From assembly GCA_026706845.1 (NCBI GenBank), contig JAPOXY010000052.1, positions 1 through 32,336 of the forward strand: a stretch of 32,336 nucleotides of DNA, given 5' to 3'. This document shows positions 1,817 to 7,963 of the stretch, piece by piece. The notes below the pieces were generated by a model. It had not been told where the DNA came from. It searched no databases and saw nothing but the letters and a program-made list of their open reading frames with translations. Each line of letters opens with the position of its first letter. The stretch's first letter is position 1. This stretch comes from Gemmatimonadota bacterium (lineage in GTDB: Bacteria; Latescibacterota; UBA2968). A program made the translations under genes and the position numbers.

Positions 1817-1855
1817 GTGTCCGAAAACGGACACCACTGTATCATTATCGGACAC
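1817..1855 (+). promoter_or_regulatory. Upstream activator site: perfect palindrome plus a second half-site
   Basis: GTGTCCGAAAACGGACAC (1817-1834) is a perfect 7-bp inverted repeat around AAAA. A second TCGGACAC half-site follows at 1848-1855. If that half-site belongs to a degenerate second dyad, the centres are 21 bp apart, two helical turns, on one face of the DNA. It sits about 100 bp before a sigma-54 promoter, the normal distance for a bacterial enhancer-binding protein. The cognate regulator is not in this window. Confidence 0.6.
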
Positions 1856-1918
1856 TTATGTGGGGATGCCAATTTCCCATTTTTATTTAACTTGTTGAAA
1901 AATATACATAAAGAATTT

Positions 1919-1936
1919 TTGGCACGGTTATTGCTT
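1919..1936 (+). promoter_or_regulatory. Sigma-54 (RpoN) -24/-12 promoter
   Basis: TTGGCACGGTTATTGCTT matches the sigma-54 consensus TGGCACG-N4-TTGCW without a mismatch in the conserved positions. GG (1921-1922) and GC (1933-1934) are exactly 12 bp apart. The predicted start is near 1946, about 43 nt before the permease ATG. No comparable TTGACA-type promoter precedes this gene. Confidence 0.82.
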
Positions 1937-1988
1937 TAATCAAAAAATAACACTTGGTAGCCTATCTTATTTTTCTACAGGGGGAGCC

Positions 1989-4370
1989 ATGTTCAAAAAT
2001 CACATCACCGTCGCCATCCGTACACTCTTGCGTCACAAAGTCTATTCTTTTGTCAACATCTCTGGACTCGCCGTTGGTATTGCGTGCTGCATGTTGATCA
2101 TGCTCTTTGTACAGGACGAATTGAGCTATGACCGATTTCACAAAAATGCCGACCAAATCTATCGCGTTTTGTGGAACGGCCGATACGGCGACAACGAATG
2201 GACCATTCCCTATGTTGAAGTTCCCATATCTGAAACCCTGAAAGAGCGATTTCCAGAGGTCATCCACAGCACGCGATTGAGACGAGAAAGTCAAACCATT
2301 CGTCGAGAATCGAATTACGTCATCGAGAAAAATTTCTACTACGCGGAAAACAGCTTTTTCGATGTCTTTACCGTCCCCTTCATCGCGGGGGATCCCGCAA
2401 CAGCACTCAATGCGCCCAACGCCGTCATCCTCACCGAACAAAGCGCACAGCGTTATTTTCCCAATCGCGATCCAATGGGACAAACCCTCGAACTCAACGA
2501 TGGCAAATCGCTTCAAGTCACGGGCGTGGTCAAAGAATTCCCACCCCAGTCCCACTTTCACTTCGACTTTCTCGCCCCCCTCAAAACACTCCCCATTATC
2601 GAGCGCAGAAAATCAGCCTGGGGATCCGCCACTGTTTATACGTATCTCATGTTAAAAGACGGAGCATCCGCCTCGGAATTGCAAACCAAATTTACAACTT
2701 ATGTTCGCGAACACATCTTGAGCAAAATGCCACCAATGCCCGGCTACCACACCAACTACCCCATCCAGCCCCTCACAGACATCCATTTACATTCTAACCT
2801 CAGATATGAAATCACGGCAAATAGCAATATCATGTATATCTATATCTTCTCACTCATCGCAATTTTTGTCCCGCTACTCGCCTGCATTAACTTCGTCAAC
2901 CTCTCCACAGCGCGTTCATCAACCCGCGCCCGCGAAGTCGGCGTTCGAAAAGTCCTCGGCTCTCATCGCTCGCAACTCATTCGCCAATTCTTCTCCGAAT
3001 CCACCATCTGCGTCGCATTTGCAAGTGTTCTCGCAATTGGTATGTGCGAATTGGGGCTGCCACTGCTCAACAGCCTTGCCAACAAACATCTCACAATGGG
3101 CAACCTGATCGCGCCCCATGTGCTCATTGGATTATTTGCTCTCATCATCATCATCGGCCTCTTATCCGGCATGTATCCAGCACTTTATCTCTCCTCATTC
3201 TGGCCTGTTACGGCACTTAAAGGATATATATCATCGGGCAAATCTTATCTTCGCAACGGATTGGTCATCGCACAGTTTTGCATTTCCATCAGCCTTTTGG
3301 TTGGCACACTCGTCGTTCGCAACCAGCTTCATTTCACACAAAATAAACACCTCGGATTTGACAGGGAACACGTCCTCATACTCCGGGAGATACCGCGTAC
3401 CCTGACCTCCCCCAGACAAGCCATGACATTTAGAGATCAACTCGAAACACTGCCACAGGTAGCTACAGCCTCACTCAATACAGGTGTACCGGGGCGTGAT
3501 TTTGATTCCATGCTCTTCGTACCCGAACAACCGGCAAATTATGAAAAAACATCTCTCACATACACATTGGTAGATGAAAAATACGTCGAAGCACTGAATA
3601 TAGAAATTTTAGAAGGCCGCAACTTTTCTCCAATAGAACATGCAACAGATGTCACTGCATTTCTCGTCAACCAATCCGCCGTCAAAGCACTGGGATGGCA
3701 AACTGCACTCGGCAAAAAACTCAAAAGAGGCAGCGGAATCGAAGGCCCGATTATCGGCGTAGTATCCGATTTCCACATCGGCTCACTCAAACAGGAAATT
3801 GAGCCACTCGTATTGCCCTATCTATACCGACTTCCAATGTACCTTGCCATTCGTCTCCATCCCGGCAATGTCGCAGAATCTATATCTGCGGTTGAAGAAA
3901 CCTGGAAAAAACTCGCCCCAAACCAGCCGTTTAGCTACACATTTTTAGACCAAGATTACGCCAGACTCTACAATCGCGAACAACAAATGTCCCACGTCTT
4001 CCAAATCTTCTCCGGCCTCGCCATCCTCATCGCCTGCCTCGGCCTCTTTGGTCTGGCTGCGTTTACCACTCAACAACGCACTAAGGAAATCGGCATTCGC
4101 AAAATCCTTGGCGCCTCTGTCTCAGGCATTGTGTGCCTGCTCTCCAAAGACTTTCTCAAACTCGTCCTCGTCGCCAATCTCATCGCATGGCCAATTGCAT
4201 ACTACGCGATGAACCAATGGCTACAGAGCTTTGCTTACCGCATCAATCTAAGCATCAGCACATTTATCCTGAGTGGTCTCATTGCCTTGTTCATCGCGCT
4301 TCTGACCGTCAGTTATCAAGCCATCAAAGCCGCGCGAGCGAATCCCGTGGAAGCCTTGCGGTATGAGTAA
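1989..4370 (+). CDS. MacB/FtsX-type ABC transporter permease (orphan)
   Basis: The protein has 793 residues. ATG 1989 follows GGGGG. The N-terminus has the typical MacB_PCD start: a basic stretch, a first membrane segment at about residues 20-42 (ending LFVQDELSYD), then a periplasmic core domain. An FtsX block follows at about 280-400, with a membrane helix and then the cytoplasmic coupling motif REVGVRKVLGS. A second periplasmic domain runs to about residue 670, and a second FtsX block contains KEIGIRKILGAS with further helices. It is therefore a double-FtsX permease of the kind involved in export of peptides, macrolides or lipids, or in signalling at the inner membrane. No ATP-binding protein gene lies next to it. 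The sigma-54 promoter and upstream palindrome imply control by an enhancer-binding protein, perhaps in response to envelope stress. The family call is firm; the substrate is unknown. Confidence 0.88.
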   Translation: MFKNHITVAIRTLLRHKVYSFVNISGLAVGIACCMLIMLFVQDELSYDRFHKNADQIYRVLWNGRYGDNEWTIPYVEVPISETLKERFPEVIHSTRLRRESQTIRRESNYVIEKNFYYAENSFFDVFTVPFIAGDPATALNAPNAVILTEQSAQRYFPNRDPMGQTLELNDGKSLQVTGVVKEFPPQSHFHFDFLAPLKTLPIIERRKSAWGSATVYTYLMLKDGASASELQTKFTTYVREHILSKMPPMPGYHTNYPIQPLTDIHLHSNLRYEITANSNIMYIYIFSLIAIFVPLLACINFVNLSTARSSTRAREVGVRKVLGSHRSQLIRQFFSESTICVAFASVLAIGMCELGLPLLNSLANKHLTMGNLIAPHVLIGLFALIIIIGLLSGMYPALYLSSFWPVTALKGYISSGKSYLRNGLVIAQFCISISLLVGTLVVRNQLHFTQNKHLGFDREHVLILREIPRTLTSPRQAMTFRDQLETLPQVATASLNTGVPGRDFDSMLFVPEQPANYEKTSLTYTLVDEKYVEALNIEILEGRNFSPIEHATDVTAFLVNQSAVKALGWQTALGKKLKRGSGIEGPIIGVVSDFHIGSLKQEIEPLVLPYLYRLPMYLAIRLHPGNVAESISAVEETWKKLAPNQPFSYTFLDQDYARLYNREQQMSHVFQIFSGLAILIACLGLFGLAAFTTQQRTKEIGIRKILGASVSGIVCLLSKDFLKLVLVANLIAWPIAYYAMNQWLQSFAYRINLSISTFILSGLIALFIALLTVSYQAIKAARANPVEALRYE

Positions 4371-5205: not shown

Positions 5206-5296
5206 ATAAAAGTTGCGTTTCGCCTTTTTAATTTGGAACGCATTGTATATCTTTGTAAGAGAAACATCGTTCCCACATCCTCACCAGGAGACCACC

Positions 5297-6610
5297 ATGC
5301 GCCTGATCTATCTCATCCTTCTGACCCTATTCACAGTCCCGGCTTATGCAAACGAGCATTACCGTGCTGCCGTAGATTCCATACCCTCAAAAATTCCCGA
5401 CCGCATTGTACTCAACTGGTCGGAAGACCCCACCACCACAGCATCGATTACATGGCGCACCGATACGAGCATCACACAAGCCGAAGGACAGATCGCAAAA
5501 GCCAATGCCTCGGCCAATTTTACCACATGGTCCTGGAGCAAAAACGCGCGCACTGAAAAATGGGAACACAATGGAAATACTGCACATTTCCATTCGGTCA
5601 CATTCAAGGGTCTCAAATCCAACACCCTCTATGCCTATCGCGTTGGCAGCGGCGACATCTGGAGTTCCTGGTATCAATTTCGCACGGCCTCAGCCGAACC
5701 GGATGAATTCACCTTCATCTACTTTGGCGATGCACAAAACAACCTGCTCGCTCTTTGGGCACGCACCATCCGAACCGCCGTACTCGACGCGCCCCATGCC
5801 GATTTTATCATCCACGCAGGCGACCTCGTCAATCGCGCCAACAGGGACAGTGAATGGCAAGAATGGTTTAAATCTGGCGACTGGATCCATGCAAAAATCC
5901 CCAGCATATCTACGCCGGGGAATCACGAATACTATAAAAATGGAGACAAACGCCATCTATCTGTTCTATGGCGTCCGCATTTCACCCTGCCAGAAAATGG
6001 GCCAGAGGGGTTTGCAGAAACGACCTATTACACAGACTATCAGGGTGCGCGCATCATCTCGCTCAATTCCAATGAACGCCACGAAGAACAGGCATCCTGG
6101 TTGGAACAAGTACTCAAAGATAACCCGAATAAATGGACCTTTGTCACATTCCATCATCCCGTCTATTCGGCGTCTGAAGGTCGCGACAATAAAGACCTGC
6201 GCAAAGCATGGAAACCCATCTTTGACAAATACGCCGTTGATCTGGTGCTTCAGGGTCACGACCACTCGTATGCCAGAGGAAATAACATCGGCAGCGGCGC
6301 AACCGTGCGCGACACAACCAAAGGTACAGTTTATGTCGTATCGGTCAGCGGTCCCAAACAATACAAACTCAGAAAAGACCGCTGGATGACGCGCGGTGCG
6401 GAAAACACACAGCTTTACCAGGTCATCACTGTCTCGGGTGACACCCTGAGCTACCGCGCAATGACCGCAGTGGGTGAACTCTACGATGCCTTTGATCTGG
6501 TCAAACAGATGGGCAAACCCAACAAACTCATCGATCGCGCGCCTCAATCCCCCGAACGCCGTTGGGAAAATACCCTTGAAAAGAAAGACAAAGACGACAA
6601 AGTTTATTAG
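5297..6610 (+). CDS. Secreted purple acid phosphatase-like metallophosphoesterase, copy 1
   Basis: The precursor has 437 residues. ATG 5297 is chosen because CAGGAG stands 7 nt upstream and the start gives a clean Sec signal peptide (MRLIYLILLTLFTVPAYANE, cleavage after about residue 18). Residues 33-131 are a purple-acid-phosphatase N-terminal (fibronectin III-like) domain. The metallophosphoesterase domain follows with every motif present: GDAQ (Asp145), GDLV (Asp175), GNHE (Asn209 metal ligand, His210 proton donor), HHP (286-288) and GHDHSY (His321, His323). Such enzymes hydrolyse phosphate esters in the periplasm or outside the cell with a dinuclear metal centre. It is 34 bp upstream of a close paralogue in the same orientation, so the pair is probably co-transcribed. 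Phosphate scavenging is likely but untested; 5'-nucleotide or phosphodiester substrates are alternatives. Confidence 0.88.
   Translation: MRLIYLILLTLFTVPAYANEHYRAAVDSIPSKIPDRIVLNWSEDPTTTASITWRTDTSITQAEGQIAKANASANFTTWSWSKNARTEKWEHNGNTAHFHSVTFKGLKSNTLYAYRVGSGDIWSSWYQFRTASAEPDEFTFIYFGDAQNNLLALWARTIRTAVLDAPHADFIIHAGDLVNRANRDSEWQEWFKSGDWIHAKIPSISTPGNHEYYKNGDKRHLSVLWRPHFTLPENGPEGFAETTYYTDYQGARIISLNSNERHEEQASWLEQVLKDNPNKWTFVTFHHPVYSASEGRDNKDLRKAWKPIFDKYAVDLVLQGHDHSYARGNNIGSGATVRDTTKGTVYVVSVSGPKQYKLRKDRWMTRGAENTQLYQVITVSGDTLSYRAMTAVGELYDAFDLVKQMGKPNKLIDRAPQSPERRWENTLEKKDKDDKVY
5619..5722 (+). repeat. Segment identical to 6966-7069 (104 bp)
   Basis: Within the tandem phosphatase genes this 104-bp stretch has no mismatch to its partner at 6966-7069, including third codon positions. 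Differences resume on both sides. It codes for the junction between the N-terminal domain and the phosphoesterase domain. Confidence 0.85.
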
Positions 6611-6643
6611 TGGTCTTATAAAAATTCTCCCCCGGAGACCACC

Positions 6644-7963
6644 ATGCGTCTGATCTGTCTCATCTTTTCGCTCCTGTTCACAGCCCCGACTTATGCAAAC
6701 GAATATCACCGTGCAGCCGTAGATCGCGCGCCTAAAAAAATCCCCGACCGCATAGTAATCACCTGGTCGGGAGACCCCACCACCACAGCATCGGTCACAT
6801 GGCGCACTGACACGAGCATCACACAGGCCGAAGGACAGATCGCAGAAGCCAATGCCTCGGCCAATTTTACCACATGGGCCAGAAGCGAAACAGCGCGCAC
6901 TGAAAAATGGAAACGCAACAGACTTGCCGCCCATTTCCATTCGGTCACATTTAAGGGCCTCAAACCCAACACCCTCTATGCCTATCGCGTTGGCAGCGGC
7001 GACATCTGGAGTTCCTGGTATCAATTTCGCACGGCCTCAGCCGAACCGGATGAATTCACCTTCATCTACCTTGGCGATGCACAAAACAACCTGCTGTCCC
7101 TGTGGGCGCGCACTATCCGAACCGCTGTGCTCGACGCACCCCACGCCGATTTCATCATCCACGCAGGCGACCTCGTCAACAATGCCAACAGGGACAGCGA
7201 CTGGCATGAATGGTTTGAATCTGGTAACTGGATCCATGCAAAAATCCCCAGCATTCCTACGCCGGGGAATAACGAATACTCTAACTATCAAGATGTGAGC
7301 AAACGTCGCCTATCTGTTCTATGGCGTCCACAATTCACCCTGCCAGAAAATGGTCCCGAAGGCTTTGCGGAAACCACCTATTACACGGACTATCAGGGCG
7401 CGCGCATTATCTCGCTCAATTCCAATGAACGCCACAAAGAACAGGCTCCCTGGTTGGAACAAGTACTCAAAAACAACCCCAATAAATGGACTTTTGTCAC
7501 ATTCCATCATCCGGTCTATGCGGCATCTGGAGGCCGCGCCAATAAAGACCAGCGCGAAGCGTGGAAACCCATCTTTGACAAATACGCCGTCGATATGGTG
7601 CTCCAGGGTCACAATCACACGTATGCCAGAGGACATAACATTGGTAACGGCGTAACCGTGCGCGACACAACCAAAGGTACAGTTTATGTCGTATCGGTCA
7701 GCGGTCCCAAACAACTCACACTCAGAAAAGACCGCTGGATGACGCGCGGTGCGGAAAACACACAGCTTTATCAGGTCATTACTATCTCGGGCGACACGCT
7801 GCACTACCGCGCAATGACCGCAGTAGGTGAACTCTATGATGCTTTTGATCTGATCAAACAAATGGGCAGACCCAACAAACTCATCGATCGCGCGCCTCAA
7901 TCCCCCGAACGCCGATTTAAAAATACTCTAAAAAAGAAAAACAAAGACGACAAAGTCTTTTAA
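6644..7963 (+). CDS. Purple acid phosphatase-like protein, copy 2; catalytic His replaced by Asn
   Basis: The precursor has 439 residues with a Sec signal peptide (MRLICLIFSLLFTAPTYANE) and a GGAGACCACC ribosome site almost identical to that of copy 1. Domain order and motifs match copy 1: GDAQ (Asp145), GDLV (Asp175), HHP and GHNHTY. The difference is in the GNHE motif, which reads GNNE (Asn209 kept, His210 changed to Asn; codon CAC in copy 1 is AAC here). In purple acid phosphatases the Asn binds metal and the following His stabilises the transition state and donates a proton. This copy may therefore bind metals yet hydrolyse slowly or not at all. Two residues are inserted just after this motif. 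The rest of the frame is intact, which argues for retained function, for example as a binding protein or with altered substrates, rather than simple decay. Confidence 0.86.
   Translation: MRLICLIFSLLFTAPTYANEYHRAAVDRAPKKIPDRIVITWSGDPTTTASVTWRTDTSITQAEGQIAEANASANFTTWARSETARTEKWKRNRLAAHFHSVTFKGLKPNTLYAYRVGSGDIWSSWYQFRTASAEPDEFTFIYLGDAQNNLLSLWARTIRTAVLDAPHADFIIHAGDLVNNANRDSDWHEWFESGNWIHAKIPSIPTPGNNEYSNYQDVSKRRLSVLWRPQFTLPENGPEGFAETTYYTDYQGARIISLNSNERHKEQAPWLEQVLKNNPNKWTFVTFHHPVYAASGGRANKDQREAWKPIFDKYAVDMVLQGHNHTYARGHNIGNGVTVRDTTKGTVYVVSVSGPKQLTLRKDRWMTRGAENTQLYQVITISGDTLHYRAMTAVGELYDAFDLIKQMGRPNKLIDRAPQSPERRFKNTLKKKNKDDKVF
6966..7069 (+). repeat. Segment identical to 5619-5722 (104 bp)
   Basis: This is the partner of the identical stretch in copy 1. 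Offset between copies is 1347 bp. Confidence 0.85.

Follow-up and report, generated by a model that had tools for sequence, protein, structure and literature searches.

The window, the whole 32,336-nt contig C52 of a Latescibacterota genome of 5.46 Mb in 279 contigs, encodes a 793-aa ABC permease (1989-4370, + strand) that no ATPase gene adjoins, and this raises the question of how such a gene is controlled and which ATPase would serve its product. The protein contains two matched stretches each of MacB_PCD (PF12704) and FtsX (PF02687), all above the cut-off, and was described as ADOP/DarB-like from Pfam, NCBIfam and solved MacB relatives. The original prediction had placed it in a sigma-54 regulon, on account of a -24/-12 promoter and an upstream palindrome. 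Here, we argue that the DNA upstream of the gene is a control region and that the gene belongs to a dispersed sigma-54 regulon, in which a histidine kinase and a response regulator would act through an enhancer and DNA looping on permeases powered by a shared ATPase, a reading to which we assign a probability of roughly 0.85. The material consists of sequences, mostly from fragmented metagenome-assembled genomes, from which one can read the architecture, its conservation, the targets, and how the regulator is linked to and co-occurs with the enhancer. Two purple-acid-phosphatase-like genes are located in tandem 3' of the permease gene (5213-7963).

A direct reading of the window located the motifs exactly where they had been noted. 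The sequence TGGCACGGTTATTGCT at positions 1920-1935 fits TGGCAC-N5-TTGC, and its GG (1921-1922) and GC (1933-1934) are 12 bp apart, as stated. The -24/-12 promoter itself (TGGCACGGTTATTGC, 1920-1934, + strand) is an exact consensus and the sole match with zero or one mismatch within the window. Judging from the geometry of sigma-54 promoters, transcription is predicted to start at position 1946 on the same strand, about 12 nt after the GC of the -12 element, and a ribosome-binding site (AGGGGGAG, 1979-1986, + strand) was read directly from the sequence. The enhancer had been described as one palindrome plus a half-site, both of which are there, but the site is better described as two imperfect dyads within a 43-bp composite (AAGTGTCCGAAAACGGACACCACTGTATCATTATCGGACACTT, 1815-1857, + strand). 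The first dyad (GTGTCCGAAAACGGACAC, 1817-1834, + strand) reads GTGTCCG-AAAA-CGGACAC and is a perfect palindrome in the window copy and its orthologues, and in a phylum-level relative (L298) as TGTCCGCTGACGGACA, while in most copies it reads GTGTTCATTTTCGGACAC. The second dyad (TGTATC-ATTAT-CGGACA, 1838-1854, + strand) is imperfect, and its TGTATCA and CGGACA are kept in nearly all copies; the distance from the CGGACAC half-site of the first dyad to the second one, at 1849-1855, is 21 bp. Between the enhancer and the promoter there is an IHF-like bend site (TAACTTGTTGAAA, 1888-1900, + strand) with one mismatch to the consensus YAANNNNTTGATW. A similar element is present at the same place in paralogues, the genome contains four HU/IHF-family genes, and it is plausible that IHF would bind at this site. 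Immediately 5' of the enhancer, at 1718-1790, there are two imperfect 32-bp tandem units (TTTTGGAACT..CTCC.AAATAGTTGAACTA), of which some orthologues contain a single unit only.

The palindrome TGTCCG-N4-CGGACA had been proposed as a signal by which further members could be found, but it is not enriched in the genome. The exact form occurs a single time in 5.46 Mb, and the ten sites with one mismatch are fewer than in the control and carry no significance alone; this search signal was rejected and replaced by the composite site. Comparison with another sigma-54 site, on contig C189, revealed a longer shared block, which defines the composite enhancer as GTGTYC-N6-CGGACAC-N3-TGTATCA-N4-CGGACAC, 43 bp in length. 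Searched as CGGACAC-N4-GTATCATT-N2-CGGACAC with at most three mismatches, it gave nine sites in the genome versus none in the reversed control, which is highly significant. The nine aligned sites give AAGTGTTCATTTTCGGACACCACTGTATCAAAATCGGACACTT, followed by the IHF-like element TAAC-N3-TTG, and in eight of them the -24/-12 promoter is located at a fixed distance from the enhancer; the exception is the copy on C267, where a TGGCACG starts some 180 nt beyond that position, at the end of the displayed sequence. Exact TGGCACGNNNNTTGCW sites number 24 genome-wide, versus 0 for the reversed control. A permease paralogue on C134 (L128, about 6005-6020, - strand) has a near-consensus sigma-54 site and no recognisable enhancer, which is a point against the proposed reading.

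The genes that follow the nine enhancers are mostly of one kind. Permease paralogues, including the window gene, follow six of them (C52, C30, C85, C89, C100 and C267), while the enhancer on C141 precedes a gene for a six-bladed propeller protein and two permeases, that on C11 a gene for a TPR/GWxTD protein, and that on C189 a single ABC ATPase gene. The recurrence of the motif upstream of similar permeases supports the proposed membership in a sigma-54 regulon. The genome contains 48 stretches that match the permease. In the complete genome of a congener (G007), a permease gene starts at most 1.7 kb, and usually no more than 200 bp, downstream of all 13 enhancers, and 29 of the 38 permease genes, counted after merging fragments by hand, are located on the same strand as an enhancer and no more than 13 kb downstream of it. 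By these sequence criteria, about nine scattered operons in the genome studied here and at least thirteen in the complete congener appear to be under the control of the same regulator. Genes for ECF-like sigma factors are located beside or inside enhancer-led operons in relatives (L241:6377-6958 and L247:6835-7416), and a regulatory cascade is possible.

With the 21-bp spacing, about 110 copies were identified in 20 of 119 genomes, all of them Latescibacterota, with no matches in the control; these include all 11 genomes of the genus to which the window belongs as well as other families, and in further, more distant families the spacing is 1 bp longer. A scan of public genomes gave 74 matches, all but one consistent with Latescibacterota or relatives. 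Some of the records are filed under older labels (Gemmatimonadetes, Poribacteria), and for at least one of these a match to a genome in the order of the window was seen. The match in Lachnospiraceae (L244) was dismissed as an apparent chance hit in a GC-rich, apparently coding stretch that has no promoter. A contig labelled “Ekhidna” (L228, JAPPDO010000209.1) was likewise rejected as an occurrence in Bacteroidota, as a protein that it encodes shares 94.5% identity with a Latescibacterota locus, and it is probably a misbinned contig of Latescibacterota origin. Among the exact copies in the public scan with room to look, 64 of 75 have a sigma-54 promoter, and the distance from CGGACAC to the -24 element is 90-94 nt in 63 of these 64 and 102 nt in the remaining one. 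Of the 58 copies with enough downstream sequence, 54 lead to genes for MacB/ADOP-like permeases, ABC ATPases or membrane-fusion (adaptor) proteins.

Both motifs were also kept in the orthologous upstream regions. Orthologues of the window permease, with 90-95% identical proteins, are present in eight genomes, and in the alignment of nine sequences 39 of 41 enhancer columns, 18 of 19 promoter columns and 14 of 18 columns in the IHF-like region are invariant, compared with 11 of 28 in the spacer that precedes the IHF-like site and about 33-49% in the flanks. Hence, the three elements are nearly invariant while their surroundings diverge. The repeats could nevertheless belong to a repetitive element or to a mobile promoter cassette that is spreading, associated with permeases only by descent from duplicated loci, since the permeases form a large paralogous family and duplication together with the upstream DNA would copy the enhancer. 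However, the interval between the enhancer and the promoter is highly diverged among paralogues, whereas both ends and the 90-94-nt spacing are kept, and orthologous flanks diverge where the sites do not. Moreover, the same enhancer precedes unrelated genes, for an ATPase, a propeller protein, a TPR protein and an adaptor, and neither conserved flanking boundaries nor transposase genes were seen around the copies. We therefore regard a cassette or plain duplication as very improbable and retain the reading of a maintained sigma-54 control region.

A sigma-54 regulon needs both the sigma factor and an activator. The genome contains rpoN (PF04552, 198.5 bits, C43:4808-5281, open frame of 496 aa) and about 20 enhancer-binding proteins. 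The expected link to the gene for such a protein was found in relatives, where the enhancer adjoins one. In at least ten outgroup genomes from several families (G014, G016, G034, G046, G015, G017, G037, G041, G044 and G060), a gene for an NtrC-type response regulator precedes a histidine kinase gene and is divergent from an enhancer-led operon that encodes either adaptor, ATPase and permease or a permease. The regulator in G014 has receiver, sigma-54 AAA+ and Fis-type HTH domains and an adjacent histidine kinase, and the regulator is single-copy in every genome that has it. Regulator and enhancer co-occur in 27/29 versus 3/35 genomes (Fisher p = 2e-12 overall, 9e-9 when the genus is left out), p-values that overstate independence because the genomes are related. 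Presence of the two agrees in 59 of 64 genomes, mixed genera included (27 with both, 32 with neither, 2 and 3 discordant); in G019, G020 and G043 the enhancer is matched weakly and the regulator is absent, which counts against the proposed reading. Among the orthologues of the regulator the recognition helix is almost invariant, and it is distinct from those of the other enhancer-binding proteins of the genome studied here.

The orthologue in this genome is cut at the start of contig C167, where the C-terminal 191 residues are assembled, with the beginning of the kinase gene after them; the fragment is 70-76% identical to the linked regulator over 179-191 residues. A protein of the NtrC family on C238 was set aside as a paralogue, with 41-42% identity versus 70-76% for the C167 fragment. 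Because the regulator gene adjoins no enhancer in the genus of the window, and only these 191 residues are available here, its identification as the activator relies on the linkage in the outgroups, the co-occurrence and the shared recognition helix. The same position in the genus, along with the presence of about 20 enhancer-binding proteins, would also fit a regulon that is real but in which another of these proteins binds the site and the linked regulator controls something else. We consider this unlikely, as the linked regulator is divergent from the enhancer in several families, co-occurs with it across genomes, and has a recognition helix whose conservation goes with that of the site and which is unlike those of all paralogues in its own genome. 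Thus, the NtrC-type response regulator and its histidine kinase are the probable activator system, and linkage, co-occurrence and HTH conservation together suggest that the regulator binds the enhancer. The location of the regulator gene away from the enhancers in the genus, where the regulon has grown, suggests that an ancestral linked operon was followed by dispersal, which we consider the likely history.

Other sigma-54 activators of about 1,050 aa are encoded on C200 (L094:9848-13045), with similar ORFs on C121, C93, C119 and C130; they combine an N-terminal two-component-regulator propeller and Y_Y_Y with AAA+ and Fis HTH domains, as seen in the one that was domain-scanned and, for the others, from N-terminal similarity, and an exact sigma-54 promoter is located just 3' of the gene on C200. 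Two proteins of about 1,500 aa (L098 on C174 and L099 on C233) are partial at contig edges, and the one scanned, on C174, fuses protein kinase, AAA, TPR, GAF and sigma-54 activator domains. Downstream of both there is an exact sigma-54 promoter that precedes an acidic ORF of 64-69 aa, alike in the two.

The permease had been described as lacking an ATPase neighbour, and it does, but it is an orphan by position only: an ATPase gene with the same enhancer and promoter is located elsewhere in the genome. This LolD/MacB-like gene (C189:7147-7821) forms a single-gene unit, and its product is 97-99% conserved in members of the genus and 82% in G014, which belongs to another genus. Most of its orthologues have kept the enhancer and the promoter, including the one in G014. 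In G007, the region upstream of the ATPase gene (L355) has lost one dyad, as expected from recombination between 21-bp direct repeats, leaving GTGTTCATTTTCGGACAC with the IHF-like site and the promoter intact, and in G008, a genome with two enhancers and few permeases, the ATPase gene has neither enhancer nor promoter. The C189 gene may supply the missing ATPase in trans; the conservation of its product together with the enhancer and promoter suits a shared ATPase without proving it. On the other hand, the window permease could have a dedicated function with another MacB/LolD-like ATPase, or with none. Other ABC ATPases are encoded in the genome, including one at C242:22354-23019 that is beside a permease gene and 63% identical to the C189 ATPase, and some operons in relatives have an ATPase gene of their own. 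Against this, the C189 gene is a single-gene unit with the same enhancer and promoter in several members of the genus and in G014, and its product is strongly conserved within the genus. We consider a dedicated function a serious contender, a little short of an even chance, and continue with the shared ATPase.

The steps that we infer, from phosphorylation and binding to looping, ATPase sharing and the substrate, would be as follows. The histidine kinase would sense a signal, probably from the envelope, and phosphorylate the NtrC-type response regulator, encoded in this genome at the edge of C167. The regulator would oligomerise on both dyads of the enhancer (1815-1857), and a bend at the IHF-like site (about 1888-1900) would loop it onto the RNA polymerase-sigma-54 complex at 1920-1934, where its AAA+ domain would open the promoter. 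The same regulator would drive other permease operons, some with a gene for a beta-propeller protein or HlyD-type adaptor, and here also the separate ATPase gene on C189. The permeases would probably be type VII (MacB/Lol-like) exporters, or else transporters for envelope stress, powered by the shared ATPase. The role of the regulon is likely to be export or envelope defence, in line with the “stress or export” role that had been surmised. In its broadest form, which we put forward tentatively and at distinctly less than even odds, one two-component sigma-54 system co-induces dozens of orphan MacB-like permeases and a single shared ATPase encoded elsewhere, a mix-and-match fleet that grew within the lineage from a regulator-linked adaptor-ATPase-permease operon. 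None of the adverse findings that were looked for, such as a genome lacking rpoN or orthologous loci lacking both motifs, was made, and the core of the original prediction is supported.

The permease, ATPase and adaptor resemble components of the Dar, Mac and Lol systems, although no equivalog cut-off was reached. The window permease matches the ADOP family profile (TIGR03434) over its full length and shares with that family the duplicated MacB_PCD/FtsX domains and the many paralogues without an adjacent ATPase, but its score of 340.6 bits versus a cut-off of 622.3 does not make it a member. The permease, ATPase and adaptor match DarB, DarD and DarC of the darobactin exporter DarBCD, respectively, and MacB is the nearest solved permease, as in MacAB-type type VII exporters; however, all scores are below the equivalog cut-offs (164 vs 700, 242 vs 375 and 172 vs 450 bits), the permease and ATPase are encoded apart here, and no darobactin context was seen. 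Assignments of the permease to ADOP or DarB were rejected on these scores. With NtrC-type two-component regulons (NtrC, AtoC/ZraR and PEP-CTERM PrsR), the system shares the activator with Response_reg, AAA+ and Fis HTH domains, the histidine kinase, the paired dyads about two helical turns apart, the IHF-like site and the -24/-12 promoter. It differs in that the regulator falls below every NCBIfam equivalog cut-off (best TIGR02915, PrsR, 391 vs 502.6 bits) and in that its enhancer sequence and targets could be matched to no described regulon.

Sigma-54 has been argued to control the bacterial exterior (PMC3162934), and our search of the literature for Latescibacterota with sigma-54 found no report. 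An in silico study described sigma-54 promoters before FtsX/COG0577 permeases and COG1136 ATPases in Bacteroidia, Opitutia and gamma-proteobacteria (PMC12316311, PLoS One 2025). The same permease and ATPase families are thus preceded by sigma-54 promoters in both cases, but that study does not mention Latescibacterota, and the portions compared gave no matching enhancer or activator. The regulon is new and well-delimited, while sigma-54 control of FtsX permeases had already been reported in silico for other phyla. For an uncultured phylum, it makes available a concrete regulon that is defined by sequence, has a predicted regulator, enhancer and set of targets, and apparently began as a single linked operon before spreading to a dozen dispersed ones. 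Why large permease families without ATPase neighbours persist would find a testable answer in their co-regulation with an ATPase in trans, and the 2025 report is extended by naming a probable enhancer and activator.
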